From Blattamonas nauphoetae (taxonomy: Eukaryota; Preaxostyla; Oxymonadida), in NCBI GenBank assembly GCA_033064195.1, contig JARBJD010000313.1:20027-84026 (forward strand): a DNA stretch of 64,000 bases, written 5' to 3'. Positions 17,227 through 63,583 of the stretch are shown piece after piece. The position numbers were made by a program, and so were the translations under genes. Position 1 is the stretch's first letter. Every line of letters begins with the position of its first letter. The notes under the pieces were generated by a model that was not told the origin of the DNA, did no database searches, and saw only the letters and a program-made list of their open reading frames with translations.

Positions 17227-18199
17227 AGACCCTCCACAAACCCGTTTTTAAATATAAACCCGTTTTTATTCGAAAAGAACTTAATAATCCTAATATCTCA
17301 GCAGTGAGTCAAAGTTAGGTGAATTAGAAACGAGTTGCAATATCTAGGTTATCTGCATCTGATTTAAATTGTGTCGAACTCAATTTCAAAGAATGGGTAT
17401 CTAATTTCAACTCCCCCTCTCTCTCAGAATATAAGATCGTCGATGTCTAATTTCCCGTCTACCACCTCTTCTCCATCACCACCACTATTTTTTCAGAAGA
17501 TTACCACATCTATCGACAAGCTCATCAACCACCAACACAAAAGTCAATGATCAATTCGTTCTCCGGAGATCTAATTGAGAATTTGGAGGAACAAACATCA
17601 CAAGACGATTAAAAGTCATCCATTGTTCGATGTTTGTCCATGAATGAAGAGAATATCACACGAACCGTGACACAACCAATTCGTGTTGTAAACTTGCTTT
17701 ATCACCATTCAGATCATGTTGGACACTCTTTTACATGATTTAACACATGTTGCCGAGTCAATGAATCCTATACAAAGAACTCTGGCCAGCCCACCTTTGC
17801 CCGTGGGGGCGTCATCTGGCCTTGTGCGACTGGTGATGCGCGGGACTGATGAGGTACAGCGACATGGACAACGCGCTCGAGATGATCTCCAACGCCGCCG
17901 AGTACGACTTCATGGCCACCTCCCAGACAGCCAGTCAGTGAGGCACGCAATCGACGTCGCGAAGGAGTTCTCGGAGAAGACGCTCATACGCACCTTCACA
18001 CAAGTCGTCGCGGCACTCCTTCTCTTGCAGGGTCTCTCACCACCGAGCTCGCCCGCCGGCAGGTCCAGGAATCCATCTCATCAGAACCCTTGTGATCCAG
18101 CCTCAGGCCCACCAGAAAGCGAGGTCACCAAAGATATCACCCCATTTCATCCACCTCAGGGTGTTTTTCAGATGACCAGCGAGTCGACAAGAGCAACAG

Positions 18200-19835
18200 T
18201 TGCAACTCTCCCTCCGATCCCAAAGCGAGCTATGCTTCCCCTCACCCTGCTCCACCCACCCACCAATTGCTCCTCGCGGGAAGCAGGACGAGCCAGAGCG
18301 GAAGGAAGAGGACAAGAAGGATGATTCTGACAACAGCGACTTGATTGAACTGGACCCAAAACCCAAACAGGAAAACACAACTCGTCCGGCTGATCTGACA
18401 CGACACACCCCGCCAACAACGTCTTCAGATGCACATGTCGCAACGAGGCAGTTCACATGAGCACCAACAACAGCCGAAGAGCACCGTCTCTCTCCAAATG
18501 AATTGGACAGTGATGCCGAACAGCAGATTGGAGTGGTCAAGCAGAAGGATGGCAGTGTCGACTCATCTCTGAAACAGGAATTAGAACAACTCGTCGACAC
18601 ATCCGCATCTTCTGCATCGAATGCAGATCTGTTGCGAATAATCGATTCTTTGAAAGCAACACTCGTCGAAGTAGAACGACAGCGCTCGGCTGACAAGGCG
18701 AAGTATGAAAAAGAACTACGAACAATAGGTTCAGTCTCGGCTGAGGAACACTCCGAACTGACTCGTCTCACAGAGGAGAACGCTCGACTGACCGAAACAA
18801 TGTCAGAGTTCCAAGTTCGAGCAGCTTCGCTGGCCACAGACAAAAACACGCCGGAAAAGAGTTTGGAGTAGACGAGGCAGAAGATGGAGATGGAGCGGGA
18901 GAACAACACGCGGTTGGAGGAGACGAAGAGGGAGGTGGATGAGTGGATTGGGATGAACAAAGAGAAGAGCCATTCCATCGAGACACTCAACACGAACATT
19001 GATCAGCTCACGACTGAGCGAGACACACTCAAAGCCAACCTGACCGCAACAAACCAGTCACTCGACGAATCCAACCAGCGGTGTGCATCTCATCTCATTC
19101 ATCGTCTTTGCTCTTCGTTCTTTCATGCCCTTCTCTCCTCAATCATTCTCCTTTCTGTTTTCCTTTCTTCCCTTCAGCATCGACACCCTCTCCTTCGAGG
19201 TCTCTTCCCTCCTTGCCCAAAACGCAGAACTGGAGCACCTTCTCTCCAAAGACTGGCTCATCACGACCGACAAGCAGACAGAATGTATTGGAGTGAGCGA
19301 GTCAGCTGCACAACTCTCCTCAATCGAGAAATTCAAGCCTGCCAGCGTCACTTCACACCAACCGCACTACTTGGACGACATCGGCGACAAGATCGGATCG
19401 TATATGATGCACTTCACTGAGAGTGACATGAGAAAGGTGAGAGAGTACTCCTACGCGCTGGAGAAGGGTGAGGAAGTGAACAAGACACAGTTGCGGCGGA
19501 CCCGAAGCGATCTGCAGTCCCAAACGACAATCCAGCCACTCCAAGTTCCCACTCTTGCTTAGCCAGCCAAAACGAAGAGGGGAAAGAAGCTGTCACTCGC
19601 ACCTCTCTCGCCCGCCAAGCACGTGCCCAGCATGACCCCTCGCAAACAACGATCGAAGCGGAACATGCAGCCGGTGACAGAACACGACGTGGAGAAGCAG
19701 CAGAAGGAGATGGAGCGGAGAGTGGTCGAGCAGGCTCGCAAGTTCAACAAATACATTTCCAGCCAAGTCGGCACCGTCGCTTCACTCACCGCCGCCAACG
19801 AGAACACGGATGGGCAGAAGAGCGTTCTCGACTAG
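18200..19835 (+). pseudogene. Coiled-coil protein gene carried inside the 17.2-20.3 kb element
   Basis: A long heptad-rich product: LADLTRH-type linker, ELEQLVDTSASSASNADLLR, LTRLTEENARLTETMSEFQV, KREVDEWIGMNKEKSHSIET, ERDTLKANLTATNQSLDESN; then, after a 97-nt intron, FEVSSLLAQNAELEHLLS, HYLDDIGDKIGSYM and a basic tail (KQRSKRNMQ) ending at 19835. The frame is held throughout apart from in-frame TGA (18458), TAG (18869) and TAG (19560); the 18869 stop falls where the sister copy at 46.8-49.3 kb has CAG. No motor, kinase or membrane motif. A cytoskeletal or flagellar coiled coil is a guess. More decayed sequence upstream (17716-18110) may belong to it. Confidence 0.6.
19081..19177 (+). other. 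97-nt intron in the coiled-coil gene
   Basis: Starts GTGTGCATCT and ends CCCTTCAG. Removal restores the frame between NQSLDESNQ and the downstream LSFEVSSLL. The sister copy has an intron of the same length at the same position (47190-47286), which supports it. Confidence 0.8.
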
Positions 19836-20282
19836 ATGTGAAGGATCAGCGAATGCTTCGAAACGTTCAAAATGAAGGAATACTTCATCGAGAATGTGGT
19901 TTGTGTTTCTTCTCCTCTTCTCATCGTTATTGCTCTTCTGCCATCTTTCTTCACTCCTCTCTCTTCATTGTCTCTCTCTGCCTCTTCAGGATCTCGTCGT
20001 CCTGTCCTTCTGTGTCTTCTTCTCGTTCTGACAACAGATCGAGACTGAGACACGGTCATCCCCTGTGGACACGCGCTCTTCAGCCATCTTACATCCTCAC
20101 TACCCATTCTTTAGATCCATTCTCATTTCATCAATCAATATCAAGTGCAATTTCTCTCTCAATACCATCACCAATGCATTTCTAGGAATATATAAGATGA
20201 CTTTTTTCCACTATAGTTCGAATTCTGGGTCTAGGTGAATAAAAACGGGTTTATATATTTTTGACGGGTTTGTGGAGGCACT

Positions 20283-21113
20283 ATCATCATCGAAGAATGT
20301 GAGACAACTTGGAATCGTGAGAAATACTGGCATACAAATAACAAAATCCATTGTTGGTTGATGATAAGAACAGAATCGGACGAGTCGGGCGAGGAGGGCC
20401 ATGAAATACATGGGTTGCATCCCATCAATGATTGAAAAGTAGTTCATGCACAAATGGGAAATGTACTTCTCCAAAGGTACGATAACTTGCTTTAAAACCG
20501 TTTCGTGAACATCTCGCCGTTCATTGTCATATTTCATTCCGATGTTTTCCAGACTGTATGGAGTTGCGAGCTCGAGAGAATTGGTGATGACTTTCATGAG
20601 GTAGATGTGGATATCGACTGCTTCTGCGAAGGAAAGAGATTGTGGATTGAGGGTGTTGATGAGTTGAGGGATCAGATTGGCTTTGATGAGAGTATAGTGG
20701 ACGTGACGTGAACACAAGAACAGAGACTCGAGCATCTTCATTGCTGCTGTGGATATAGCCTGACTGCCTGAGGAAATGAGCACAACAATGGAGTGTAGGA
20801 AGTCTCTTAAAGAGTCATCAATGAACGATGCAAAGCTGCCGAGATGAGCATCAGTTAATTCATCATAACCTGGATCCACAGACTCGAGAAATTTCACGGC
20901 CTTTGCCTCCAGTGAGTCATCAAGTGCAGGCTGGTACTGCACTGTGGCAACGAGAGATCGAAAGACAACGACCTTTTCGGATTCAGATTCGTTTCGATTG
21001 TTTTGCCAATTCAGGAAAGAAGAGCAGTCTGGAGAACATAACACGCAATGTGAAGAGATACCAGAGCATGTATAATCTGTGGAGGCATTAATCTTCGAAT
21101 CTAAACCAGTCAT
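20283..21113 (-). pseudogene. Armadillo-like family, member 7: N-terminal part
   Basis: ATG at 21113 (MTGLDSKIN). Family blocks LCSPDCSSFLNWQNNR, VVFRSLVATVQYQPALDD, SLEAKAVKFLESVDPG, LISSGSQAISTAAMKML, LIKANLIPQLINTLNPQSL, ETVLKQVIVPLEKYISHLC, PTMDFVICMPVFLTIPSC follow without a break up to FFDDD, where the element begins. The remaining 80 residues lie at 16979-17226. The apparent residues after FFDDD (to 20211) come from the element TIR. Frame otherwise clean, so inactivation by the insertion is probably recent. Confidence 0.85.
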
Positions 21114-21138
21114 TCTGTTGGATTGAGAGGGTAATCAC

Positions 21139-21150
21139 TCGTTATGGGTC
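21139..21150 (-). promoter_or_regulatory. Conserved upstream 12-mer GACCCATAACGA
   Basis: 25 nt before the ATG of member 7. The interval 21151-21429 upstream holds nothing else that I recognise. Confidence 0.35.
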
Positions 21151-21429
21151 AGAAAAAAGAATGAGTGAAACAATGAAAGTGTGATAAAATAATCGTCTAA
21201 ATGGAAGAAGAAAACATCCCCTCATGACAGATGAGCTATTCGCTGAATCAACGACGAAGGAACGAAAGACACAAGTCAGAGTTGCTGTCGCTGGTGTCCA
21301 GCGGCGAGTCGGCACGAAAGTGAGGCTCAGGGAGATGGAGTGGGTTGAGTTTGATTCTTCGTTTTCAATTTCCTGAGAAATGCATGTTCTGTGATGTTCC
21401 TCCCTGAACATCGCTCAATTTGAGCGATC

Positions 21430-23515: not shown

Positions 23516-23541
23516 TCCTTCCAGTTTCACAGTGATTTCAC

Positions 23542-23553
23542 TCGTAATGGGTC
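23542..23553 (-). promoter_or_regulatory. Upstream 12-mer, one mismatch (GACCCATTACGA)
   Basis: 26 nt before the ATG of member 9. Confidence 0.3.
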
Positions 23554-23930
23554 AGATGAGAAGATGAAGAGCTGATATTGAAATGAAAGTCATGTCCAAA
23601 AAGGAAGAACAAAAACAAATCATCGAAGTTTCAGACTATTCATGAATGAAGAAGGAGTGGTGGAACGAGACTGAAAGAAAGACTGGAACAACTTCTCGAC
23701 GAACAATGTACGAACGAGAGAACGAGTCAAAGAAAGCGAACGAGGAAGACAGTCGAGGCGGGCATTGCTTGTTCTTCCAACGAACAGATACCTGCACGCG
23801 TCACACCTAGTGAGGGGAGGGAGAGGCAGAGTGGGGTGGGCGTGGGAAGGTGTGGGGGCAACAGAGCAGGGATCGAGATCGGCTACGAATTTGGCGACAT
23901 CATCACATCCTTCCGAAGACGATTCGGAAG

Positions 23931-24735: not shown

Positions 24736-24747
24736 ATCAGCGCAAGT

Positions 24748-38798: not shown

Positions 38799-39229
38799 AA
38801 GGGAACATTTGATTGAATGGAAATTGAGGATGAATGCGAACTGTTGAGGAGTTGCTGGAGCTGTATGAGTGATCTATTTGATAAATCAGGGCGATCCGAA
38901 AATATATCACGAAATAGTGTTTGGAGAGTGTCCTGAAAGAGTCAAATCAGAGAGAAAGAATGAAGTGAAATGTGATGTGGAAAATGATGCAAACAACGGG
39001 ATCAACATCAAGCAATATGTTTCCGACAGCGCTATCTCGATCAATGACTATCGGATTTTCCATTGAGAAAGAATGAGATGACTGAGTTGATCTCTTGTGG
39101 TTTTGATCAGAATCTCACATCCAAATTGACTTCTTTCTAAGCTTGTTGGGCCTATTCCGTTCACTTCCAAAAAATCGGTGTCTTGAAGGGAGAACATCCA
39201 TATCTGACAATTTATTACGAGAGAATAAT
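38799..39229. other. Intergenic, A/T-rich; nothing recognised
   Basis: A 65-codon frame at 38869-39066 has no family resemblance. The right edge is the target site of the next element. Confidence 0.5.
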
Positions 39230-39825
39230 AGTGGCGTCACCAATCGGTGTCCTGTCACCAATCGGTGCTTTTTTCTTGAAAAATCACGATGGATCAAACT
39301 AAGAAAAAAATAAATTTTTAGAATTATACTCCCATGCAATCCCGAGAAAACCTCAAAATACCCCCTTTTGCCCGTTGAAAAAAATCGTTTTGGCAATATC
39401 TCAACAACCAATGTACCGATTTTGATGAAATTTTTCACAGAAACGTTTTTTTGGGGAAACAAACATTTTGAAAAAAATTCGGAGAAAAAATTCTGGGTAT
39501 ATGGGAAGATAGAAAAAAACCCATATTTTTCTCAACAAAAACTTCTTAGGAAAAAAATCGGTTTATTTTTTGAGCACCATTTGTCGAGATCTATACGATC
39601 ACAATGCCTTTTATTTGATTCAAAACGGATGGCTAGTTGTGGAGAAAAAAGGGGAAAAAGTTGAGAAAAATGTGTGCTTTCGTAACGATATAGGTATTTT
39701 GAGGTTTTCTCGGGATCGAGCCGGAGAATAATTCAAAAATTTTATTTTTTTCTTAGTTTGACCAAAAGTGATAAGTCCAGAAAAAAGCACCGATTTATGA
39801 CAGGACACCGATTGGTGACGCCACT
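39230..39825. mobile_element. 596-bp foldback MITE with Maverick-like ends
   Basis: Left end AGTGGCGTCAC, then CAATCGGT, 10 nt, CAATCGGT; the right end is its inverted copy with AAATCGGT as second 8-mer. Beyond the 37-bp terminal block, the ends stay inverted copies, imperfectly, for roughly 150-200 bp (shared AAACTAAGAAAAAAATAAA and TCCCGAGAAAACCTCAAAAT). Flanks ATAAT and ATAAC form a 5-bp target duplication with one mismatch. No coding capacity. 39826-40103 to the right is non-coding. Confidence 0.8.
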
Positions 39826-40103
39826 ATAACCTAGTTGAATAGTAAAGTCAAAACACACCTCGATCACCTTTGGCCCAGAAAGTCCACTCGTGTCCTCTTT
39901 TGCCCTTCAACCGAGATGCGCTGTCTTCTTCAGTGTCTTTACCTCACTCTTTACTCGCTGAACAAAATACAGATGATCATTGTCGTGAGATGAGAAGAAA
40001 CAATGAAATGACATGAACAATGAGAGTGATTGGTTCGTTGTTTTCAACAAAAATGAAAGCGAAGGAGTGGACATCATCACCAAGTGACGTGCCAAAAGGT
40101 TCG

Positions 40104-43109: not shown

Positions 43110-43239
43110 CCGCTTTCGTTTCAGTTCATATAGAAGAATTTGCTTTGAAATTCGGATATATTGACAATCATTCGCATTAATAGTGAGTACATCAGTTGTA
43201 TAATGGATCGAAGGCGAAACAAGTGATGTTTTGTTGCAT

Positions 43240-44927
43240 CAGTGGGTCAACGCAATCACGCAATGTGCAATTTAAGTTAGATCATGGGTTGATCGTAATC
43301 GATTCTCTAAGTGAGGGTCATGCCAAAAAGTAAAGTGGAAAAAGGACACATCCCAACAAAAGAGGTCTTCACAGAATATATCGGACCGTTTTTCGATCCA
43401 CAGCTCACCGAAATCCTCTATCTCGAATTCGTTCAGCATCGTGGGGCTTCAGACGCAGAGAAAGCAAGATGGTTCGTTAAGAGAACCAATCTCGTCCAGC
43501 CCATCAAGCAGCTCCAAGGTGAATCAATATCGCGGGGTCTTGGCATCTTACCATCCACATTCTCGCGAGCAAGATCATTTCAATGCAAGAAAACTGAAAA
43601 AGGAATGGGAAACAGACTTTTGAGTGACAAAGAGGAGGAAGAGGTTGTTCAGAAAGCAATCGATGCCTTTCGAACGGAAAAACCATGGAAGCTTAAAGAT
43701 CTCCGACAGACAATTCAGACAGACTTTGGGTTCACAGTATCTCACAATTTCCATCAGAGACTTTTAACTCGACACCAAGACAAACTTAGCATGAACGCTT
43801 CAAACCACGGGAAGTATACAGAATGAGAGCCAACCCAGCGGACATAGAAAGGCACAAGGATGAAATTTCAAAGGTATTTGACGAAACTCCATGGTCTTTC
43901 ATTTTTCACACAGATGAAAGTCAATACCATGCTTGGGAAGATTGCACAACTCAAAAATTTTTGGTTCCAGCCGATCAACAATCTGAAAATCACATTCCTG
44001 TTTCACGATCTGAAAAAGCAATGACTCTCCTCCCTTGTCTTTGTCTCGACGGATCATCTGAGATCCCTTTCTTCGTGATCGGGACTACAATTGATGTACT
44101 GAAAATGGCCCAAATTGGTGTGGTACATGGTCGAGATTGTTTAGTTTATCAGTCGACAACTCAATGGGTCGATTCCGACCTCTTTTTCGAGATGGATTGA
44201 ACATGTCCTCGTACCCACCATAAATTTTCGGCGAGTGGCACTAAACCTCCCAGACCAAAAGGCTGTTTTGATCACTGACGGACTCAAAGTCCACGGGACC
44301 GACGAAGTTCGCATCATTCTCGAATCGCACAACATCCAATTGTATCTTCTTCCTCCCAACTCATCTCACCTAACACAACCGTGCGATCTCGGCATTTTCG
44401 GGGTATGGAAAATGAGGATAAATGAACAACGAGGGAGAGAATGCGATTCTACAATTGAGGAGTTGATCGCCATTGCCACGTGTGCCTATGTTCAAAGCAC
44501 CTGCCCAATCTCCGTACGAAGTGCATTTAGAGCTGCTGGACTGGATGTATCTTTGACGGACGATGGATTACTCCCGGCTGTCAACCATTCAAAGATGGAA
44601 CAGATAGCTCAACAGCTCCGTGGAGAAAATGTCTCGATCTCTCCCAAGAAAGAGCCCACTCGCAGAAAGACACGTCCACAACCCTTTGGAATCCTACCAG
44701 CCTTCTCCCAAGATCCAGAAAAGAAAAAACAATCGAAGAAAGGTAAATCGAAGAAAGCGACACCAGCAACTCACACATAAAATAGGCAACTAACTGTTAT
44801 ACTTTTCATACACTCATTGTTAATCTACTCAATTCTACGACAATAATAACCCAATGAATAGAAATCTAGAGCGATCAACCCAAGCACCGGTTTAAATTGC
44901 ACATTGCGTGCTTGCGTTGACCCACTG
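43240..44927 (+). mobile_element. pogo-type DNA transposon, copy 1
   Basis: TIRs start CAGTGGGTCAACGCAA and continue through CACGCAATGTGCAATTTAA with one mismatch; weaker inverted similarity (GGGTTGATCG) follows. Immediately outside are GCAT on the left and ATGC on the right, so the flanking dinucleotide is AT rather than the TA usual for pogo/Tc1. It contains the transposase relic at 43311-44780. Identical placement in copy 2 shows that it was duplicated with its surroundings. Confidence 0.85.
43311..44780 (+). pseudogene. pogo/Tigger-like DDE transposase, copy 1 (frameshifted)
   Basis: Same sequence as the copy at 51947-53415 except for one extra T at about 44180 (CTCTTTTTCG against CTCTTTTCG), which cuts the catalytic part into 43823-44200 and 44235-44780. 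The first catalytic Asp (HTDES) is in the first piece; the second (ITDGLKVHG) and third (QPCDLGIFG) are in the second. It cannot make a complete enzyme as written. The difference is in a homopolymer, so a read error is possible. Confidence 0.85.
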
Positions 44928-46320
44928 ATGCGATGGAGTTTGCAATCTGCGAATGAATGTCATGCTTCTCCAAAGTCGAAGACAGAAAATATTGTGTTTC
45001 AGGATTTGACTGTGTTTTGTTGTGCTTTCCCGCTATTGTATGCTTGGGAGGCATGTTTGACGGATCTGCCCTCACAAGCCATCTTGACAAAGCATCTATT
45101 GATTATTCTCGATGTCATGACTGTTTTTCATTGCTTTCTTGAAACGAAATTCAGATGATCACTGTCGTGAGATGAGAAGAAACAATGAAATGACATGAAC
45201 AATGAGAGTGATTGGTTCGTTTGTTGTCAACAAAAATGAAAGCGAAGAAATGAGCAGCATCAGTCAGTGTCATCCCAATCGATCAAATCGCCCAAATTGG
45301 CCCCATGAAACTGCATCATTCTCCTGAACCAGGGAAGTTGCTGGTTGCGAAAGTCGTTCACCTTCTTCTTGACCAAGACGAACTCCACAGCATCCAGCCA
45401 GCCTTCCTCCAGAAAGAGATGAATTGCTCTTCGAATCCTCGTCTTTTCTGCTCGTCGCTCGCAAGAATCGCATATGCTCAGAACAAAAACCTTGAGGATA
45501 CATTTGTATTCGATGAAAGTGCTGTCATCCAACACTCCACCGACAATTCGAGAGAAGAATCCGACACTCCGGAGGCACAGAGCGATCGTGTGCTGGTCAC
45601 ACAATCTGCAGACGTCGATAAAGACTCTTTCTCGATCGATTCTTGCTATACAGTACGAGATCTCGAGTTCGAAGATAATCGTGTTGAGCATGTGGAAGGA
45701 TGGAGAGAGCAGTCGTTCGAGCTGAGAGAGAGTCAGTCGGGTTGCACAACGCTTAATTTGAGGCAAGAGGGCTTCTGGAAAAGCGAGGAGGTGTTGGGTG
45801 AGGTGCAGCGATGCACGGTTGAACGAGAGTCTGTTCTCTCTGACCGCTCGCATCACAACACAAACTGTCTCCAGATCCACATCGTCCCACTCATCAAATG
45901 TTGGTTGAATGTCGTTTGGCTTTGGGCAGAGGAGAGAGTTGATTGGATGAAGATAGAAATAGTCGATGTGGAGAGAGAGGAGAGACTCGAGTGCGTGGAA
46001 GAATTGTTCGGTTGTTCGGCCCGCTTTTCTGAACAACTCGGGAAGATAGACAGATTTGAGTTGGTTTGTGAAGAATGTGCAGATGCGAAGGATGGTATTG
46101 TCATCCAAACACGAGTCGCTTTCGAGCAGACCAACAATTCTATCCACAACACCGAGGATCTCTTCGTCGGTGAGACGGCAGACAAGTTCAGACGTGAGGA
46201 TAAATTGTGGTGGAGATGAGGAGCGGGCTGCCTCATCCATTTGCTGTCTCAATTCATCTCGAAATGATTGTGCCACGCTGTCTTCTCTCTCATTTCGAAA
46301 CAAGCGGATGAAAAAACCAA

Positions 46321-46779
46321 GGGTGTCTCAATTTTCAGGGGAAAAACTCGATCTCAGGGGAGTATCTCAATCACAGGGGAGAATCTCAATCACAGGGGAA
46401 AATCTCAAACACAGGGGAAAATCTCAATCACAGGGGAAAATCTCGGGCCACAGGGGAAGAATCTCAAGGACAAGGGGATTGAAGAAGAACACAATTTTGA
46501 TCCTGTTTGGTTTAGTGGGTAGTACATTGGACTTTGAGGCGGCGGACCCGGGTTCGATTCCTGTCATCGACTTTTTTTTCCTATTTTATTACATTTTTTT
46601 TAAGATATCACAACTTCTTTCTCTTTTCAACTTTCCACATTTGGAGAGTTTGTCAATGACTGATGAACTGTGATCGTGTGATCCTTCATGATCTTTCATT
46701 GATTCTCTGATTTAAGCATAATTTCCACACAAATTATCAATCCACAACACATGTTTGAAATGAATGATATGTATTCTTC
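46321..46779 (+). repeat. Left TIR with subterminal 19-20-bp repeats
   Basis: From 46326 to about 46470 a unit like TCTCAATCACAGGGGAAAA recurs about eight times with changes (first CTCAATTTTCAGGGG, then CTCGATCTCAGGGG and so on), a likely array of transposase binding sites. A tRNA-like relic follows at 46503-46571, then a non-coding A/T-rich stretch. Confidence 0.85.
46503..46571 (+). pseudogene. tRNA-like relic (Gln-UUG-like) in the left TIR
   Basis: Seen: a pol III A-box-like TGGTTTAGTGGG, an anticodon-loop-like CTTTGAG preceded by TTGGA, a B box GGTTCGATTCC, and an eight-T run directly after (46572-46579). The T arm pairs reasonably (CCGGG/CCTGT). The anticodon stem is largely broken and the acceptor ends do not pair, so it is not a working tRNA. 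The loop agrees with glutamine (TTG). It may be an old tRNA pseudogene or the head of a tRNA-derived SINE. Confidence 0.6.
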
Positions 46780-46844
46780 ATCGTTTTGAATTTCGCTGTC
46801 ATCAGCCCCGAAAAATAAAAAGATCCTTCGATGGCTCGATTGTC

Positions 46845-49286
46845 GTTTGGGACTGCAGATCGCTTCGGGTCCACTGCAACCGTGTCTTGTTTACTTCCTA
46901 ACCCTTCTCCAGCGCGGAGGACTCCCTCACCTTTCTCGTGTCGCTCTCAGTGAAGAGCATCTCATACGATCCGATCTCGTCACCGATGTCATCCAAGTAG
47001 TGCGGTTGGCGCGAAGGGACGATTGTTGAGTGGAACTTCTCGATCGAGGCGAGTTGTGCAGCTGACTCGCTCACTCCCACCCAATCTGCCTATGTGTCGA
47101 TCGTGATGAGCCAGTTTTTGGAGAGAAGGCGTTCGAGCTCAGTTTTTTGGGAGAGGAGGGAAGAGACCTCGGAGGAGTGGGTGTAGATGCTGAAGGGAAT
47201 AAAGGAAAACAGAAAGGAGAATGATGGATGAGAGAAGGGCATGAAAGAACGAAGAGCAAAGACGATGAATGAGATGAGACGCACACCGCTGGTTGGATTC
47301 GTCGAGTGACTGGTTTGTTGCGGTCAGGTTGGCTTTGAGTGTGTCTCGCTCTGTCGTGAGCTGATCAAGGGTCGTGTGGAATGTCTCGATGGAATGGCTT
47401 TTCTTCTTGTTCATCCCAATCCACTCATCCACCTCCCTTTTCGTCTCATCCAATCTCTCCTCCAAACGTGTGTTGATCTCCCGCTGCATCTCCATCTTCT
47501 TTCGCGTCTGCTCCAAACTCTTTTCCAGTGTGCTTTCGTCAGCGGCCAGCGAAGCTGCTCGAACTTGGAAGTCTGACATTGTTTCGGTCAGTCGAGCGTT
47601 CTCCTCTTTGAGACGAGTCAGTTCGGCAGAGTGCTGGCGTTCTGTTTTGGCGAGCGTTGCTTTCAAGGAATCGATCATTCGCAACAGATCTACATTCGAT
47701 GCAGAAGATGCGGATGTGTCGACGAGGTGTTCTTGTTCCTGTTTCAGAGAAGAGAGACGGTGCTCTTCGGATGTTGTCGGTGGGGTGTGACGTGTCAGGT
47801 CAGCCGGCGACTCCTTCCGCTCTCCTCTTCTCTCCTGCAGCGAGCTGTTCGGCTTTTGTCTCGCCACGAACGAGTCTTTCAAACGCGAGAAATTGTCGAC
47901 TTGCTCGTCTCGCATGGAGTCGGCGATGATCGTGTTCGACAGGACGAGGCCGTGCTTGTCAACAGCCAGTTGGAGAGCAGGTGGGCTCAGCCGCTCCTCC
48001 CAACACTCACACGCTGTTTCTTCTGTTTCAATTCGCGTCTGGTCTTCCTCCGAAGTTGGTTCGTCCTCGTTCTCTCTTCTCCACTCACTCTCACTTCAAC
48101 TCTCGCTGTCATTGTCTGTCTGCGTGTCTGCTTCATATTCAGTCTCGTTCCGGTTCGTGTCGCGTGAGGGTTGCGATGAGACGGCGTTGTTCAGATTGAC
48201 AGAATTCACTTTTTCTGCGTCGTTCTGCGAGTCGTTCTGGTTGCTCGTCTCTCCCAACACTTTATCTCGTCGTGTGTGGAGTTGTGATTCATTCTCTCTC
48301 GTGTCCTCTGTTGAGTCCTCGTTCTTCTCAGCTCGTTCGCCAGGCTCCTCGCTGTCTGATCCTTCTTCCCGCGTGTTGGCGACTCTGACTGAATTAGTGT
48401 CAGTGCGACATTCATCGGACATGCCGGAATCGACGAATAGAAACGCCAGTTGTGGACAGCACACAATGTGTGGTTTGAGGGTGACATGATGGGAGTTGGA
48501 GGACATGCGAAGCGAGTTGCGGGATTTCTCGGGTGTTGTGCGAGGAGAAGCGGGCTGTCGAGATGGACGGGAGGAAAGTCGGGAAGTGGAAGATTGGGGT
48601 TTGTAGAAAGATGATTGGGTGAAGTGGGGGTTGTCTTCTTGTGTGTACCGTTGCTGTGAGATTGGCTTTGACTGATGTGTGGTTTCTGACTGTTCTTGGT
48701 TGGTGTATGTGGGAGGCATTGTTAAAAAACAAGATTAATCTCGTTCTGTTTGCTGGTTGGTGCGAGACGTGGCATATTCTTCATTGAACAGCTGATTCTC
48801 TGATTGTTGTGGTGGACGATGAAATGACTGGGAATTCTGCGTGGCAAAGGCAGCAGATGATTGCTGTGGAAACTGTGGGTTGATGTGCTGTTGTTGTTTG
48901 TTCACAAAACCCTCTCTGGTTGAGAGGGAGTCTGCCCTTTGTTTGGCATACCGCTGTGCCTGTAAACGGACAGTGCTGTGCTCGTTCCGAGAAAGGAAGG
49001 GAGAAAAGTCCTTTTGTTGATCTGGGAAGGCGACAACAACTCGTTCAGAATCGACGAGCGGGTTCTGGACATCGTTGATCTTGGCTGGAGGCTGTTCGAG
49101 TTTGTTTCGATTCTCAAGAACTTTAACATGAGGATGGAGGAGATACGACATAACATCGCCCGAATAGAGAGGTGGGAGTCGAGTATCTTCCACAAGCTCC
49201 TGTTGTGAGTGCATCAGAGATCTGATGGTCATGGGAAACTCCTGACTGGGCGCATCTGGTTGGTCATCTTCAGATTGGCCGCCCAC
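46845..49286 (-). pseudogene. Coiled-coil protein gene captured in the 46.3-50.3 kb element
   Basis: One minus-strand frame can be followed from 49286 to the 97-nt intron at 47190-47286, then on to about 46845. It is broken only by in-frame TAA (48735), TGA (48096), and TAG at 47090 and 46898. It starts with a Gln/Asn/Ser-rich region (PQQSENQLFNEEYATSRTNQ), passes an acidic one (EDSTEDTRENE, then REPSEED-like), and enters the coiled coil: ALQLAVDKHGLVLSNTIIAD, HLVDTSASSASNVDLLRMID, LTRLKEENARLTETMSDFQV, KREVDEWIGMNKKKSHSIET. The coiled-coil half is clearly related to 18503-19562 in the other element, with the same intron. The last part of that sister (basic tail) is missing here. Origin host gene not in this window; function unknown. 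Confidence 0.65.
47190..47286 (-). other. 97-nt intron, equivalent to 19081-19177
   Basis: GTGTGCGTCT...CCCTTCAG. Same position, same length and mostly the same bases as in the other captured copy. Its retention shows that capture was at DNA level, not through mRNA. Confidence 0.8.
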
Positions 49287-49342
49287 TGCAAACTACTTCC
49301 CAATCTGCCACAGATTCGCCTGCCTATCGCGCAGCCTGGCGT

Positions 49343-49834
49343 TCAGCGAGTCGATGATGTCTTGCACGTTCTAACGAAGATATAGACAGGAGAAAGAGGA
49401 ACCTGACCAAACCCTGAGCACATTCTCAAATTGATAAGTCTATGACAACCGCAGAAGGAGAGCATACTTCCGTTCTTCCAGCTCAATTCGCTTGTCCACA
49501 AGCGACGAGATTGCCATTTGTGTCTACTCACCCTTCTTTCCAAACTCCTCCACATCCTTCCTGGCCAACTTCTTCTCTTCTTCAATTCACCTAAACTTCA
49601 GGTTGAGCTTGCGTTCCATCTCTTGACTTCGTACAACAAAAACACGAACAGTGTCGTGATCCGCCTCCAGTTGTCTTGTTTCTATGATCGACGATAGATC
49701 CTGAACACAAATGAAAAAGAATAAGAGTAGACAGCTTCTTCAACCACCTAATCCACTTCATGCTCTTCATCGTGAACGATCTTTGCTCTCGCCCTCATTA
49801 TCAATTGGACAGAAATTGAGCTGTATGCAAAAAC
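49343..49834 (-). pseudogene. Possible upstream exons of the captured coiled-coil gene
   Basis: Short coding-like pieces in changing frames: VQDIIDSLNARLRDRQANLW near 49330-49375, LVDKRIELEERKYALLLR near 49470-49510, and LEADHDTVRVFVVRSQEMER near 49610-49680. Intron-like gaps separate them (a GTGAGT donor near 49530, a CGTTAG acceptor near 49376). They look like the 5' exons of the same gene, but I cannot fix the joins. 49700-49834 is non-coding. Confidence 0.4.
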
Positions 49835-50292
49835 GAAGAACACATATCATTCATTTCAAACATGTGTTGTGGATTGATAATTTGTGTGGAAATTATGCTT
49901 AAATCAGAGAATCAATGAAAGATCATGAAGGATCACACGATCACAGTTCATCAGTCATTGACAAACTCTCCAAATGTGGAAAGTTGAAAAGAGAAAGAAG
50001 TTGTGATATCTTAAAAAAATGTAATAAAATAGGAAAAAAAAGTCGATGACAGGAATCGAACCCGGGTCCGCCGCCTCAAAGTCCAATGTACTACCCACTA
50101 AACCAAACAGGATCAAAATTGTGTTCTTCTTCAATCCCCTTGTCCTTGAGATTCTTCCCCTGTGGCCCGAGATTTTCCCCTGTGATTGAGATTTTCCCCT
50201 GTGTTTGAGATTTTCCCCTGTGATTGAGATTCTCCCCTGTGATTGAGATACTCCCCTGAGATCGAGTTTTTCCCCTGAAAATTGAGGTACCC
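49835..50292 (-). repeat. Right TIR of the Mutator-like element
   Basis: Inverted copy of 46321-46779. Differences seen: two bases in the first eight, one substitution near the inner edge, and one T fewer in a T run. Such identity implies a recent insertion or ongoing homogenisation. Confidence 0.9.
50042..50110 (-). pseudogene. tRNA-like relic in the right TIR
   Basis: Same sequence as 46503-46571, opposite strand. Confidence 0.6.
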
Positions 50293-51946
50293 AAAAACCA
50301 AGAATCGTGTTGTCTCGCTTACCATCCAAAGCAAATGGATGGAGGGAGAGATGGATGATGTATTCGCTTGTCTGTTTGTGGAAAGAGTGATGAGTTTTGT
50401 TAATTTCGTTTAGGAATTGGTCTTGTTCTCTCGATTCTGTTTTATTCCAAACGTTCTGGATACGATCATTCATCACTTTGATGAGTTGTGAGTGGAGTGA
50501 TTCGAATTCATTTGTGAAGGGCAGCGTCGAAGGATTGACTGCATCGAAGAAGGCAGGGAACCAGCCGCTCCAGATGCGCTCCTTAGCAGTCCCGTAGCTG
50601 AGATGATACATAAACCGTCTGAATGCTTTGATAATGGCAGTGGTGTGGTGTGCCTGTGTAGGGACGAAGAGGGCAAAGAGTGATTGTGAAGGAAGTACCA
50701 ACGATGAAACAATTTTTCTGTCTTCTGTGATTGAGAATGTGCTATTTGGATGGAAGACAGGTTCAACTTGATGTGGCCAACACGACATGAAGTTAAGAAA
50801 CGCGTGGAATCCCAAATCTGAATATTGCTTCCCCTCGCCCATTCGAACAAGCAAATCCTCAAATGTCTGCACCCAGGAGTGTTCGACACCACTTGACGTG
50901 GCAAGATCCGACCATGAGGCTTTTTCTTCATTTATGTTCGTTCTCACATCTTCAAAAAATCGCCGAATGTCAGGAGAGGAGTGTGGAGCTAAAAATTGCG
51001 TGATGTGGCGCCGGCACACTTTCATGTGCCACAAGAATGATGGACCTGAGTGAAAATCGGTGCGATGAACTGGATGGGCGAGAAGGAACCGCAAATAAAG
51101 ACAGAATTGTTGGAAAATGGGTTTGATGATTTCGGATGTGACCTGTCGGTCATGAGAGGAGTAGGGGTAGAGCTTGAGATGACTGAGGATGTCGTCTGGG
51201 GTGATGGAGGATAAACACACGTTCACGATCGATGTAAGATGGCGGTGGAATTCTATTGTTGTTCTGTTTATTGGGATTGCGTGTGGCTTCAGGTTTATGA
51301 AGAGCTGAGGCAATAATCCTGTGGAAGCCACTGCCGCAGAGAACGCCTTTGTTGAATACCGCAGGCTAGCGTCGAAGAAGGAGACAGAAACAGCTCGGAG
51401 CTTGTCGGATGGATGGGAAATGAGTTTGATGAGAGCAGACGTCACTTTCGTTTGGCATTTTGCCTCCTCAGGGAATATGGTTTCAAAGAAATTTGTGGGG
51501 TGATCTTCGCGATATTTTATGTGTATGATTGCGTATTCAAGGAAACTGACAGCGTGATTAACTTCAATTTGCGTGAATGTCTGATTAGAGTTGATCTGTT
51601 CGAAGAGCGAGATACAGCCTTGTTGTAGAGCATCGGGGGTGATCGAATTCTGTTGGACCAACCTCCAATCCGAAGGGATGGAAGTGGGATAAATAATCTC
51701 AGTACTCCCCACATGGGCTTGTTCTGACATTGACGCAACATTCATCCGCTTTCGTTTCAGTTCATATAGAAGAATTTGCTTTGAAATTCGGATATATTGA
51801 CAATCATTCGCATTAATAGTGAGTACATCAGTTGTATAATGGATCGAAGGCGAAACAAGTGATGTTTTGTTGCATCAGTGGGTCAACGCAATCACGCAAT
51901 GTGCAATTTAAGTTAGATCATGGGTTGATCGTAATCGATTCTCTAA

Positions 51947-52462
51947 GTGAGGGTCATGCCAAAAAGTAAAGTGGAAAAAGGACACATCCCAACAAAAGAG
52001 GTCTTCACAGAATATATCGGACCGTTTTTCGATCCACAGCTCACCGAAATCCTCTATCTCGAATTCGTTCAGCATCGTGGGGCTTCAGACGCAGAGAAAG
52101 CAAGATGGTTCGTTAAGAGAACCAATCTCGTCCAGCCCATCAAGCAGCTCCAAGGTGAATCAATATCGCGGGGTCTTGGCATCTTACCATCCACATTCTC
52201 GCGAGCAAGATCATTTCAATGCAAGAAAACTGAAAAAGGAATGGGAAACAGACTTTTGAGTGACAAAGAGGAGGAAGAGGTTGTTCAGAAAGCAATCGAT
52301 GCCTTTCGAACGGAAAAACCATGGAAGCTTAAAGATCTCCGACAGACAATTCAGACAGACTTTGGGTTCACAGTATCTCACAATTTCCATCAGAGACTTT
52401 TAACTCGACACCAAGACAAACTTAGCATGAACGCTTCAAACCACGGGAAGTATACAGAATGA
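51947..52462 (+). CDS. pogo-type transposase, N-terminal DNA-binding part
   Basis: 171 residues from ATG 51947 (MRVMPKSKVEKG). Basic and helical; ARWFVKRTNLVQPIKQLQ and KPWKLKDLRQTIQTDFGFTV fit the helix-turn-helix/CENP-B-like region that precedes the DDE domain in pogo transposases, the second being a typical winged-helix recognition segment. It ends TGA at 52462, overlapping the ATG of the next frame by four bases (ATGA). Copy 1 has exactly the same arrangement, so the split is older than the duplication: either an ancestral frameshift or two separate proteins. Confidence 0.7.
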   Translation: MRVMPKSKVEKGHIPTKEVFTEYIGPFFDPQLTEILYLEFVQHRGASDAEKARWFVKRTNLVQPIKQLQGESISRGLGILPSTFSRARSFQCKKTEKGMGNRLLSDKEEEEVVQKAIDAFRTEKPWKLKDLRQTIQTDFGFTVSHNFHQRLLTRHQDKLSMNASNHGKYTE

Positions 52463-53415
52463 GAGCCAACCCAGCGGACATAGAAAGGCACAAGGATGAA
52501 ATTTCAAAGGTATTTGACGAAACTCCATGGTCTTTCATTTTTCACACAGATGAAAGTCAATACCATGCTTGGGAAGATTGCACAACTCAAAAATTTTTGG
52601 TTCCAGCCGATCAACAATCTGAAAATCACATTCCTGTTTCACGATCTGAAAAAGCAATGACTCTCCTCCCTTGTCTTTGTCTCGACGGATCATCTGAGAT
52701 CCCTTTCTTCGTGATCGGGACTACAATTGATGTACTGAAAATGGCCCAAATTGGTGTGGTACATGGTCGAGATTGTTTAGTTTATCAGTCGACAACTCAA
52801 TGGGTCGATTCCGACCTCTTTTCGAGATGGATTGAACATGTCCTCGTACCCACCATAAATTTTCGGCGAGTGGCACTAAACCTCCCAGACCAAAAGGCTG
52901 TTTTGATCACTGACGGACTCAAAGTCCACGGGACCGACGAAGTTCGCATCATTCTCGAATCGCACAACATCCAATTGTATCTTCTTCCTCCCAACTCATC
53001 TCACCTAACACAACCGTGCGATCTCGGCATTTTCGGGGTATGGAAAATGAGGATAAATGAACAACGAGGGAGAGAATGCGATTCTACAATTGAGGAGTTG
53101 ATCGCCATTGCCACGTGTGCCTATGTTCAAAGCACCTGCCCAATCTCCGTACGAAGTGCATTTAGAGCTGCTGGACTGGATGTATCTTTGACGGACGATG
53201 GATTACTCCCGGCTGTCAACCATTCAAAGATGGAACAGATAGCTCAACAGCTCCGTGGAGAAAATGTCTCGATCTCTCCCAAGAAAGAGCCCACTCGCAG
53301 AAAGACACGTCCACAACCCTTTGGAATCCTACCAGCCTTCTCCCAAGATCCAGAAAAGAAAAAACAATCGAAGAAAGGTAAATCGAAGAAAGCGACACCA
53401 GCAACTCACACATAA
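52459..53415 (+). CDS. pogo-type DDE transposase, catalytic part
   Basis: 318 residues from ATG 52459 (MRANPADIERH) to TAA. The catalytic triad positions of the pogo/Tigger DDE_1 fold are visible: FHTDESQYHAW (first Asp), VLITDGLKVHGTDEV (second), and LPPNSSHLTQPCDLGIFGVW (third Asp in the QPxDxGxF motif characteristic of pogo). An Arg/Lys-rich tail (KKKQSKKGKSKK) could be a nuclear localisation signal. It lacks its own DNA-binding region, which is in the overlapping upstream frame. If that frameshift is bridged, the element may be autonomous; this is the only transposase in the window with all three catalytic residues in one frame. Confidence 0.85.
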   Translation: MRANPADIERHKDEISKVFDETPWSFIFHTDESQYHAWEDCTTQKFLVPADQQSENHIPVSRSEKAMTLLPCLCLDGSSEIPFFVIGTTIDVLKMAQIGVVHGRDCLVYQSTTQWVDSDLFSRWIEHVLVPTINFRRVALNLPDQKAVLITDGLKVHGTDEVRIILESHNIQLYLLPPNSSHLTQPCDLGIFGVWKMRINEQRGRECDSTIEELIAIATCAYVQSTCPISVRSAFRAAGLDVSLTDDGLLPAVNHSKMEQIAQQLRGENVSISPKKEPTRRKTRPQPFGILPAFSQDPEKKKQSKKGKSKKATPATHT

Positions 53416-53894
53416 AATAGGCAACTAACTGTTATACTTTTCATACACTCATTGTTAATCTACTCAATTCTACGACAATAATAACCCAATGAATAGAAAT
53501 CTAGAGCGATCAACCCAAGCACCGGTTTAAATTGCACATTGCGTGCTTGCGTTGACCCACTGATGCGATGGAGTTTGCAATCTGCGAATGAATGTCATGC
53601 TTCTCCAAAGTCGAAGACAGAAAATATTGTGTTTCAGGATTTGACTGTGTTTTGTTGTGCTTTCCCGCTATTGTATGCTTGGGAGGCATGTTTGACGGAT
53701 CTGCCCTCACAAGCCATCTTGACAAAGCATCTATTGATTATTCTCGATGTCATGACTGTTTTTCATTGCTTTCTTGAAACGAAATTCAGATGATCACTGT
53801 CGTGAGATGAGAAGAAACAATGAAATGACATGAACAATGAGAGTGATTGGTTCGTTTGTTGTCAACAAAAATGAAAGCGAAGAAATGAGCAGCA

Positions 53895-59768: not shown

Positions 59769-61046
59769 ATAAAACAAAATCATGTACCAGATCGGAGCGA
59801 TCTTGATCCTTTGCGTTCCGTTGGTACACCACTTCACTTTATGAACGAGTTTGACCAAAATGTTTCTAATTAGAGTAAAATTGTGAAGTGAAACAATGTT
59901 AGCAACGATAAGGTGAAGTGACGTACCAGATCTCTCCAATCATTGTTTTTCTCACTTCGTTGGTACATCACTTCACCTTATGAACGCGTTCAACGATATT
60001 TCAGAAAACAAGAGGAATTAAGAGTGAGTGAAGTGAAAACTAAAAGATAAAACACATTCATGTACCAGATCTCACCGATCATTTCAGATTGAATCTCGTT
60101 GGTACACCAGTGTGTTTTATGAAAGATTAGAGCAAAAATGTCAATAAAGAGATCAAAATTGTGAAGTGAAACAAGGTTTGAAGTGATAAAACACATTCAT
60201 GTACCAGATCTTACAGTTCGTTTTTATCTTGACGATCAAACATTTTTAGTTCTGTGTTCCACTTTGTTTTGATAAAAAAAGAGAATTGAAATCAAATAGT
60301 TGTGAAATGAAACGATAAGGTGAAGTGGTGTACCTGATCTGGATGATCACTTCAGATCGCGTTTTGTTGGTACACCGTTGTGTTTTAGAAAAAATGAAGA
60401 GCACAAATCGAAGAGTAGTGAAGTGTAAAAGGTGAAATGAAAGTTGAATGAAAGTAAAACAAAGTGGTGTACCAACGCATACAATTTTATCGATGAATCA
60501 CGAAGTTTCTCGAAGAAAGATGAAGATCCAAATTTTGTTCACGTCATTTTAAATTTTAATTTTGTAAAAAAGTGAGAGACAATGAAAAAAAAACTGACAA
60601 TGAAGTGAAAATGAGAGGATAAAGTGAAGTGTTGTACCAGAAAAGAGAATGTCAAAAGTGAAGTGAAAATTCTGGTACGTCATTGTGTCTTATAAAGAGA
60701 TAATACAAAAAAGAGAGCAAACCTGTTTCAAATATTCAGTGAACAGCACTTTCTGGTCATAAGACGCAATAGTGTACCTGAGTTTGATGATCACACAGAT
60801 CGAGTACATGAAGATGTTTTATGAAAAGATGAATAAAAAAGAAGAGAATACCTGTTTGGTAAATCACGAGAGACATACTTTTAAGCGATAAAACGCATCT
60901 GTGTACCTGATCTTCAGGTCCACTTTCGGTTCGATCAGAGACGGTACATAAATGTGTTTTAGGAAATAATGAATTCAAAAATGGAGCAAACCTGTTCAAA
61001 ACAAGTCGGGAATGAAACCACCGTTCATAAAACAATGTGATGTACC
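59769..61046. repeat. Array of ten degenerate hairpin repeats at 139-bp spacing
   Basis: A 20-nt arm of the type ATAAAACACATTCATGTACC begins at 59769, 59908, 60047, 60186, 60315, 60454, 60619, 60759, 60888 and 61027. Steps are 139, 139, 139, 129, 139, 165, 140, 129 and 139. In seven units an inverted partner (GGTACACCAGTGTGTTTTAT type) follows: at +54/55 in six (59823, 59962, 60101, 60369, 60674, 60943) and at +43 in one (60802). In unit 2 the arms pair over 19 nt with one mismatch. The loop often starts AGATC. Sequence between hairpins is A-rich (GTGAAGTGAAA) and poorly conserved. No coding capacity. Confidence 0.85.
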
Positions 61047-61450
61047 TGAACGAGAGAGACAGAAAAAAGTGAAGGATCGAGAACAAGAATGAAGAGACAA
61101 AAAAGAAGAGAGAACAAATGTGAAAGTAGAAAGCATAACACACCTAAACGAAACAGTAAAGAGACGTCAGGAATGAGAAGGGATGATCGTGTCCCATTGA
61201 AGTACTTTCTCTGATCAAACAAGACTGATCGAACCCATCGATGACAGAATCGAAGTCTCGGAAGATCACAAATGATAAAATCACGAATGTAAATTTATTT
61301 TTGAATTTTTTACTTTGTATTAAATGAATCCAACTGAAATGTACAACGAAAGACGTCGAGTATGTTCAGAACAAGCATTAATTGAATCAATGAAAGAAGA
61401 GAACTGTTAGCTAGTCTCTGAGTATGTCAGAAATAATGTGCCGGTGACGT

Positions 61451-62370
61451 ATGTTCATGAGGGAGTTCAACTTTTTATTTTCAATGAAAGAGCAAACAGA
61501 AATGAATCGACAAAAATACAATTCACAAATGATTGAGAAAATGATTGATCATAATCTCTCAACAACCAACGAGAATACAGCAGTGATTGACTCACTACAG
61601 AAGACAACAGAAGCACACAAGAATGCGATATCTTCAATTCAGAAAGTGGTGAGCACAAATGGATCGATCACGACACCAACAATTGGAGGATTGATCAATG
61701 TGAATGGAGCGAAGTGGAATATCTCAGAAGGATCACTTCCGAAGTATCCTGGAACATATCCGGCATCAACATTTTCTTCTGGCGTTTCTATATCACAATC
61801 ACTTGCAGAAACTTCTGGAATTCAGTTCAATGGTGATGGCATTATTATGTGGTCTCCTGTGACAAACCAGCACTCTATTACTACGATGAGGACACTGGTT
61901 CAGGAGTGTTTTCAATATCTACAACAGGAAGTTTTTCTCAGCTGTCAGACAGAAGAGTGAAAAGAAATATTGAACCATATCCTGATGTTCTTGAACAACT
62001 GAATAAAGTTGAAATTGTGCAATATCAATTCAACACATTCGACTCGAAGATCAACAAAGTTACAAGACAAATCGAGAATGAAACCAATGAAGAACACTTG
62101 AAGAACTGCAAAGAGAAATGTGAATGCTTGAAGAAGGAAAGTGAGAAGAAACATATTGGTGTGATTGCACAACAGATCCAAGAAATCTTTCCTGAAGTCG
62201 TGAATGATTCCAATCCAGATTGTCTTCAAGTTGACTACGCAGAACTCTCGTGCTTTTGTGTGAAAGCCATTCAGGAACTGAGTAGCATTGTCGGACAACA
62301 ACAGACACTCATCAATGAACTTTCACAAAAATATAATTCCCTGACTAATACCATGACTCCGTCATCATAG
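61451..62370 (+). pseudogene. Fibre-like protein with peptidase S74 (intramolecular chaperone) domain, one frameshift
   Basis: First frame 61451-61860: coiled-coil N-terminus (MKEQTEMNRQKYNSQMIEKM), then a beta-rich segment (NGAKWNISEGSLPKYPGTYP). After a one-base shift near 61850 the second frame goes on from DKPALYYYDEDTGSGVF to QLSDRRVKRNIEPYPDVLEQ, the S74 signature: self-cleavage is expected before or at the Ser-Asp of LSDRR, and the downstream region with KKHIGVIAQQIQEIFPEVV is the chaperone that trimerises and is released. TAG at 62370. S74 domains occur on tail spikes and on proteins of Maverick/Polinton-type and large DNA viruses. Convergent with the next gene, 12 bp apart. As written it is broken. 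Confidence 0.75.
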
Positions 62371-62382
62371 AAATGCGAAGCA

Positions 62383-63583
62383 TTAATACTCCAACATGAG
62401 ATCAACCAGAAATTCATAATAGTGGTGTTAGAAACCCGCTCTGGTTCATAAACCCGCAACCAGCGTGATAAAACCGCCACTTCATTCATGAATTATTCTG
62501 TTTTTCTAATGTCCTCTACAGAAGTAATTAAGAAGTTTTTAGGAAGAAGTGAAAAAGAAAAACACGTTCGTGAAAAGTGACTTTCACATAAATGGGCCAT
62601 GATTCAAACACAATTTGATGTTTCCAAGCCCATGACTCACTGCATGTCTTTCAGCCACAAAACAAGTGTCAATTCTCAAATCCAAATGTTTTTCAAATCC
62701 ATCCGACCATTGGGAGTGAGATTCAGCGATTCATGGATGAATCACAAAATGTCAACAATGAAGTATGTCTCTTTCTTGAAATCATACCTGTGATTATCCG
62801 ATAGATAGTACATTCGAAGAAGGAGATAATATCTTGAATCGTACAGAGATTTACGTCAAGAAGACAAAAGGACAGTGACATCGATGATTGTGCATTCAAA
62901 TGAAGAATAGAAGAGAAGAAAATGAATCCGATCACTGAGACAATGTTTTTTGAAGCTCACAACAACGTACCCAACAAGAAAGCCAGAACAGAGTAGTATT
63001 TGATGACAAAGCAGAGTCTCGAAAAGATCAGATTCAATTACGTCACTTCACGACTGTTTTCGATAGATTTTTTCGAAAATGTGAGAAAAATAGAGGATAA
63101 TGTGAACAAATGGTGAAAGAGTGAGATTATGATGAAGATCGTTCGGTTGCGGTTTTTGGACCCCCGTTGCGGGTTTCTGAACGCGTGCGGGTTTCTAACA
63201 CCACTATAATACTCTTTGGTTATTTTTCCATTGATTGTCTCCGTTGTTTCCATCTCAATTGATTCACCAGAACTGTCTTTGAACCAGATCTTCACAATTG
63301 ATTGTCGAGTAGTTAATTCCCACTTCTTTCGCTTCGCAATCTGTTCGTTACAGAAAGCAACAAATGAGTCATTGAATGCATCAGTCTGGATCCAATCACC
63401 ATGGATTGTAATGTGCTGAGGAATGTCTTTTGAGATGACAGTTGAGTTACCATTAATTTCTTCCTTCACATGAATAAGTTTGCAGTCGAGAAAGTGAACA
63501 TATTTTTGGTTTCTGGAATTGGTAAAATCAGGAGGCAATTGAGCAGTGTGAGAATTCTGAATTGAGAAATATCGCTTCACCAT
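62383..63583 (-). pseudogene. Maverick-associated protein of unknown function, interrupted near its 3' end
   Basis: ATG at 63583 (MVKRYFSIQN); a TTG five codons upstream is also open. About 128 residues are readable (KYVHFLDCKLIHVKEEI, ITIHGDWIQTDAFNDSFVAF, TTRQSIVKIWFKDSSG) up to the element end at 63205. Left of the element the frame resumes for about a dozen codons and stops with TAA at 62383. No domain recognised; beta-rich, and its place between an S74 protein and another structural-looking gene suggests a virion-type protein of a Maverick. Residues read between 63205 and 63038 are element sequence. Confidence 0.6.
62421..63205. mobile_element. 785-bp non-autonomous element with Maverick-like ends, nested in a Maverick-type gene
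   Basis: Both ends read AGTGGTGTTAG, AAACCCGC, 10 nt, AAACCCGC. Exact 5-bp target duplication ATAAT at 62416-62420 and 63206-63210. The interior has no gene, only short frames. It sits in the last codons of the minus-strand gene 62383-63583. The end plan equals that of the elements at 17227 and 39230. Confidence 0.85.

Follow-up and report, generated by a model that had tools for sequence, protein, structure and literature searches.

What kind of transposon accounts for three elements that share one end plan in a 64,000-nucleotide stretch of the genome of Blattamonas nauphoetae (contig JARBJD010000313.1, positions 20,027 to 84,026; hereafter the window, with a G+C content of 45.7% from base counts)? 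A first-pass annotation proposed that they are miniature inverted-repeat transposable elements (MITEs) mobilized by Mavericks/Polintons. We find instead that they are, with high confidence, mariner/pogo-like cut-and-paste DNA transposons that insert at TNA sites and that have miniature and gene-carrying derivatives. The mechanism is ordinary and the lineage unusual: these are pogo/Tc4-like DDE_1 transposons with TNA duplications, whose sister transposases are associated with diverged end words.

The end plan is present at all six termini where it had been annotated. Each terminus comprises an 11-nt lead that starts with AG, an 8-mer, a 10-nt spacer (11 nt at the right end of element 1), and a repeat of the 8-mer. 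An AGTGGYG-like start describes elements 2 and 3, while the ends of element 1 read AGACCCTCCAC and AGTGCCTCCAC. Likewise, element 2 does not keep a single 8-mer at all its sites, since its inner right site is AAATCGGT. The true termini are TAG and CTA rather than AG and CT, which moves every border by one base. The MITE label suits elements 2 and 3 but not element 1, which is 3 kb long, carries a gene fragment, and has no transposase that we could find; a second 3,058-bp copy of element 1 is present elsewhere in the genome (L031). The corrected borders, each with its target site duplication (TSD) and tandem words, are as follows, in window coordinates.

17226..20283, no strand: element 1, non-autonomous transposon, 3,058 bp, ends TAGACCCTCCAC.. 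/ TAGTGCCTCCAC.., word AAACCCGT
17223..17225 (left) and 20284-20286 (right), no strand: TSD TCA of element 1, from the window end-pair scan
17238..17263, plus strand: tandem words AAACCCGT-N10-AAACCCGT, left end of element 1
20245..20271, minus strand: tandem words AAACCCGT-N11-AAACCCGT, right end of element 1
18872..19075, plus strand: coiled-coil-like coding fragment within element 1, from genomic copies
39229..39826, no strand: element 2, MITE, 598 bp, ends TAGTGGCGTCAC, word CAATCGGT (AAATCGGT at the inner right site)
39226..39228 (left) and 39827-39829 (right), no strand: TSD TAA of element 2, from the window end-pair scan
39241..39266, plus strand: tandem words, left end of element 2
39789..39814, minus strand: tandem words, right end of element 2
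62420..63206, no strand: element 3, MITE, 787 bp, ends TAGTGGTGTTAG, word AAACCCGC
62417..62419 (left) and 63207-63209 (right), no strand: TSD TAA of element 3, from the window end-pair scan
62432..62457, plus strand: tandem words AAACCCGC-N10-AAACCCGC, left end of element 3
63169..63194, minus strand: tandem words AAACCCGC-N10-AAACCCGC, right end of element 3

We scanned the window for TNA-TAG..CTA-TNA pairs whose ends agree at 12 or more of 20 letters and whose two TNA copies are equal; exactly these three elements were returned (end scores of 18, 20, and 20). Base-shuffled windows (five each) returned 0-5 pairs at the 12/20 threshold and 0-1 at 14/20. The end plan is also widespread in the genome. 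We searched the assembly (88,311,006 bases in 837 contigs) for word patterns, using each pattern read backwards as a control. The pattern AAACCCGT-N9..12-AAACCCGT occurs at 466 places (2 for the reversed pattern), CAATCGGT-N9..12-AATCGGT at 142 (1 reversed), and AGTGGYG-N2..6-AAACCCG at 96 (4 reversed). The 8-mer spacing therefore recurs hundreds of times, far above its control. The earlier observation is borne out for the end plan, while its boundaries and its Maverick reading are wrong; as a whole, the earlier interpretation is partly supported.

The elements are flanked by 3-bp duplications of the form TNA. End pairs were collected from all fetched loci and the window on the basis of TAG/CTA, agreement at 17 of 20 end letters, and a tandem word, with flanks ignored in the choice. 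Among 50 distinct end pairs, 44 match over the 3 bp outside TAG/CTA, and none match over 4 to 8 bp. The left flank has T at position -3 in 49 of the 50 and A at -1 in all 50, while the middle base is almost evenly spread. Removal of two loci with several pairings each (L035 and L045) leaves 44 pairs, of which 40 have a TNA duplication; when flanks were re-paired at random 10,000 times, 10.9 matched on average and never more than 22. The left flanks in this cleaned set are TGA (14), TCA (14), TAA (9), TTA (6), and ACA (1). Four pairs are mismatched: one sits within a longer inverted repeat (L032), one is probably a wrong pairing, as another end follows in the same locus (L011), one differs by a single base (L029), and the fourth is L044.

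This distribution rules out the 5-bp duplications annotated earlier, which had also been listed in reverse order relative to the elements. When the ends are read in the AG frame, an exact 5-bp duplication is seen in just 4 of the 44 pairs, and 4-bp and 6-bp duplications in none (0/44 each). The four apparent 5-bp cases arise because, at almost every end, the base before AG is T and the base after CT is A, with the next bases fitting by chance. As T is nearly always found beside AG, we also considered a plain TA duplication with ends that start with G. This is rejected because all three outer bases match, the free middle base included.

The same end plan is linked to DDE_1 transposase genes. 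One end-matched locus (L035) contains an open reading frame (ORF), P0001, with a Pfam DDE_1 hit (E 5e-9). With 105 of 665 candidates scored, a genome search with P0001 gave at least 109 matches; one with the Pfam profile PF03184, for which 150 of 628 candidates were scored, gave at least 150, and all those listed are above its cut-off. The 30 best P0001-matching loci, which represent 28 distinct places, were fetched, and 25 of these places have TAG..CTA ends, a word pair, and a matching TNA. They include one compact family of 13 copies, each 2,017-2,018 bp long with an ORF of 395 or 458 amino acids and each with a matching TNA (13/13). DDE_1 exceeds its cut-off in seven further transposase ORFs, making eight with L035, and is the sole Pfam domain to do so in these eight. 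Searches of P0001 against viral contigs found no relative, and PDB sequence searches found nothing relevant. The L035 locus is itself composite: two head-to-head transposase copies occupy positions 647-6444, with 1.9-kb arms of 100% complementarity, and resemble a fold-back element, a nested insertion, or an assembly fault.

The encoded proteins have the features of a mariner-type transposase. A very short intron seems to part two transposase exons. Three motifs align (NxDETSL, DGHSSR, and QP[NC]D), and the final two D are separated by 35 residues (counted by hand in L054 and L078); judged by these motifs, the catalytic triad is a putative DD35D. The AlphaFold model of the L054 protein has a mean pLDDT of 69, with residues 230-420 mostly at 74-95. 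A Foldseek search with this model returned eight PDB matches at E ≤ 0.001, all to Mos1 or Metnase (E 2.6e-6 to 2.8e-4); among retroviral integrases, the best E value was 0.07. The predicted catalytic fold is thus nearest to Mos1/Metnase, that is, mariner-like.

The end words are variants of one core held at a fixed step. We compared offsets 8 to 35 in 26 ends of 13 elements, seven of them transposase-bearing. The letters at element positions 13-20 recur at positions 31-38: offset 18 has a mean of 6.85 of 8 matches, the next best being 4.31 at offset 19. At least six of eight letters match in 23 of 26 ends at offset 18, in 4 of 26 at offset 19, and in at most one end at any other offset from 8 to 35. 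Some ends have a further word copy at offsets 36-40 (at most 6 of 26 ends, at offset 38). The core is NAANCCGN, with A14, A15, C17, and G19 kept in 25-26 of 26 ends and positions 13, 16, and 20 varying; CAATCGGT differs from it additionally at position 18. The 8-mers do vary between elements, as annotated, but the common core rules out that they are unrelated.

Words differ between most of the seven transposase-bearing lineages. We find AAACCCGC in L053, AAA[A/T]CCGC in L051, AAAGCCGC in L054, AAACCCG[T/G] in L060, AAAACCG[G/A] plus CAAACCGA and ATACCCGA in L075, and CAA[C/G][C/T/G]CG[T/G] in L078. L056 has a mixture of AAAACCGC, AAACCCGC, and AAATCAGC, and shares words with L053 and L051. The earlier idea of one enzyme family with diverged DNA preference and fixed spacing therefore holds in outline, as all seven lineages keep the 18-bp step, but is qualified by the sharing of words by L056.

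These features suggest how transposition would proceed. Just within each terminus, the transposase of a 2.0-2.5-kb relative would bind two 8-bp words at an 18-bp step, or possibly three such words in some lineages. It would then pair the ends and cut at TAG/CTA, and insertion at a TNA site would duplicate the three bases. We infer that the spaced words are bound by related transposases of one family, among which the preferred word has drifted, and the word variants may follow divergence in transposase DNA binding.

Candidate mobilizing lineages exist for element 3, as transposase-bearing relatives with similar ends are present. In alignments, its final 64 nt reach 85% against the end of the transposase-bearing L051 and its initial 60 nt reach 75% against L053; either could plausibly supply its transposase. 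Elsewhere in the genome, a 476-bp MITE is identical over 41 of 41 nt to a transposase-bearing element of the 2.0-kb family (L060). Elements 1 and 2 probably belong to the same group because they share the TAG end, the word position, the step, the core, and the TNA duplication.

Several of the closest known systems belong to the IS630-Tc1-mariner group. Mariner elements duplicate TA and have a DD34D triad. The catalytic fold of the mariner transposase Mos1 is like that predicted here (Foldseek E 2.6e-6), although identity is just 12-15%. The mariner-type DDE/DDD RNase-H-fold transposase of the group is evident here from DDE_1, the motifs, and the Foldseek matches. Its classical TA duplication is replaced by TNA, for which Tc4 is a known exception (PMC11071193, accessible sections). 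The pogo superfamily (Fot, Passer, Tigger, pogoR, Lemi, and Mover) is reported to have TSDs of TA, TAA, or TAAA and a DD29-59D triad (PMC7386202, accessible sections). The Blattamonas elements resemble pogo in their DDE_1 domain, in a DD35D that falls within DD29-59D, and in element length, but differ in their TNA duplication.

Several findings weigh against a mariner/pogo-like origin of all these elements. No transposase was found between the ends of the element-1 and CAATCGGT families in the loci read or, by eye, among the coordinates listed. Three of the 28 P0001 places (L057, L073, and L076) have no such ends within their 1.5-kb flanks. The N-terminal third of the L054 model is of low confidence, and the Foldseek matches are partial (TM scores of 0.26-0.34 by query and 0.41-0.58 by target). 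No known DNA-binding domain was listed for three exon-1 queries (L078, L054, and L051 exon 1), for which most matches above E 0.1 were filtered out; CENP-B_N, HTH_psq, BrkDBD, HTH_ABP1_N, and HTH_Tnp_Tc5, which are known from pogo elements, are thus all missing from these lists. The pogo group Mover likewise has no DNA-binding motif reported in the accessible sections of PMC7386202. Finally, the correlation between word similarity and similarity of the DNA-binding region is weak across the seven lineages (r 0.43, exact Mantel p 0.058, with the L056 row degenerate and the L078 row lacking the first 57 residues). The correlation with the catalytic region is no worse (0.55). Therefore, there is no proof of co-evolution beyond shared descent, and the suggestion that word similarity tracks the DNA-binding region is only suggestive.

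Could these be true Tc4/Tc5 elements, extending an ecdysozoan group to oxymonads? Tc5 is grouped with Tc4 as a TNA-type element. Tc4, a DDD element, has CTNAG as its target and TNA as its duplication; apart from the tardigrade copies added by PMC11071193, its entries are described there as coming only from nematodes and arthropods. Its TNA duplication and DDD catalytic domain, as described there, are those of the Blattamonas elements. Its CTNAG context, however, is missing here: C precedes TNA in 8 of 50 pairs and G follows in 10 of 50. Compared by features, membership of Tc4/Tc5 is thus unlikely. We tentatively raise the possibility of a deep, undescribed pogo/Tc4-like branch in a metamonad. 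Such a branch would combine TNA duplication without CTNAG, a series of related transposases within one genome, words that drifted mainly at positions 13, 16, and 20 while the 18-bp step was held, and host-gene fragments captured and amplified.

Convergence between unrelated transposons on one end plan is an improbable alternative to common ancestry. It would accommodate elements 1 and 2, for which no transposase was identified, and a repeat type (L041) that has AAACCCGT pairs at 17 bp and no TAG end. Against it, TAG, word position 13, step 18, TNA, and the NAANCCGN core are common to seven related transposase lineages. The window families have the same TAG end, word position, step, and TNA, and their words fit the core almost completely, CAATCGGT being off at one core position. 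The L041 repeat (C17:199203-200029) is a different one, with CCCTCC.. ends, AAACCCGT at its 17-bp step, and no TAG/TNA plan.

Another superfamily with 3-bp TSDs, such as PIF/Harbinger or CACTA, could in principle supply the mobility, with DDE_1 genes as passengers. PIF/Harbinger elements do make 3-bp TWA-type duplications. We nevertheless regard this as highly improbable, given that DDE_1 is the sole Pfam domain above its cut-off in the eight transposase ORFs and lies between the ends in 13 of 13 copies of the compact 2-kb family.

Mobilization by Mavericks/Polintons is hardly credible, and is rejected on TSD, gene content, and predicted fold: AG adjoins the element ends and DNA_pol_B_2 matches are present in the genome (one in a 1,564-amino-acid open frame), but only the letters AG near the terminus are alike and these are the inner part of TAG, the TSD is a 3-bp TNA and not 5-6 bp (5 bp exact in 4/44 pairs, 6 bp in 0/44), DDE_1 is encoded by 2.0-2.5-kb elements that have this end plan and lies between the ends at 25 of the 28 transposase places fetched, and the predicted fold is nearer to mariner (Mos1/Metnase) than to retroviral integrase. 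The Maverick-type polymerase PF03175, known here from genes alone, has 22 genome places at E ≤ 0.001, 15 of them above the cut-off. Polymerase B_2 matches include frames of 1,564 amino acids on C530 and 1,410 on C62, and, below the cut-off, 1,188 on C184 and 1,021 on C221. These four frames are perhaps from Mavericks or related elements.

We found no account of mariner/pogo-like elements of this kind in oxymonads in the literature, which was mostly open-access and partly surveyed; this is no proof of novelty. According to a Tc1/mariner survey (PMC7325037), few such elements are known from basal eukaryotes; Tc4, Tc5, and TNA do not occur in its accessible sections. Merlin, another superfamily, is reported in Monocercomonoides (PMC8101967, accessible sections). 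The M. exilis genome paper lists 3.72 Mb of DNA transposons, and mariner and pogo are not mentioned in its accessible text (PMC8767320), and that of the B. nauphoetae genome paper contains no occurrence of “transpos” (PMC10703272). TNA-duplicating Tc4 has been suggested to have arisen within Ecdysozoa (PMC11071193, accessible sections); a rich metamonad set would push such insertion, or a convergent form of it, much deeper. The many sister lineages with slightly different end words provide transposase/word pairs for working out how a site is read by the DNA-binding domain, and would also serve the study of how transposon families become independent.

Some elements with this end plan carry coding fragments that match parts of longer open frames. 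The coiled-coil-like fragment of element 1 occurs 26 times in the genome at 99-100% identity, counting the window copy, and also matches at 94% within a 1,072-amino-acid open frame on contig C23. Four of the 26 copies (the window, L029, L030, and L031) were seen within element-1 ends. Among the ends listed, those of CAATCGGT type pair into nine elements of ~3.3 kb, one of them at C31:57974-61291, and twelve of 3.9-4.7 kb. A 397-amino-acid frame from the 4.4-kb kind (L037) occurs at nine places at 95-100% identity. Compared by eye, seven copies are inside listed end pairs (C97, C323, C457, C830, C779, C168, and C575) and two are beside a single listed end (C70 and C212); weaker pieces are found inside three more end pairs (C401, C273, and C516). 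This frame belongs to a large family of 197 matches in all, and matches parts of 2,510-2,918-amino-acid open frames on C87 and C198 at 83-89%.

The simplest reading is that host-gene fragments have been captured and amplified within such ends, the long open frames presumably being host genes and the probable direction of transfer being from gene to element. Pack-type elements, best known from plant terminal inverted repeat (TIR) superfamilies, similarly hold host-gene fragments inside transposon ends. The ~4.4-kb CAATCGGT-ended elements are alike in carrying a piece of a large gene family, with seven near-identical copies between listed ends; they differ in that the fragments are on TNA-duplicating, pogo-like ends. 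This suggests that host-gene fragments can be amplified inside such ends in a protist.

Three further observations concern gene-carrying elements. A 614-amino-acid MULE transposase frame lies at the right border of a CAATCGGT-ended element (L037, 5689-7530). In L038 (2145-8084), AAACCCGC-type ends with matching TGA surround a stretch with a TmcB-like TPR fragment; this arrangement reflects either capture or a gene with two independent elements next to it. Within the window, a ~4-kb element at 46321-50292 has TIRs of ~470 nt, 95-99% alike in blocks and built from CAGGGGA units ~19 bp apart, and carries an 88% relative of the element 1 coiled-coil fragment.

The window also contains a DDE_1 transposon of another kind, whose TIRs are 69 nt long (CAGTGGGTC..). 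Its two copies, at 43236-44931 and 51872-53566, lie within a segmental duplication (42.5-45.8 kb and 51.1-54.4 kb), and one of them has an open frame of 329 amino acids.

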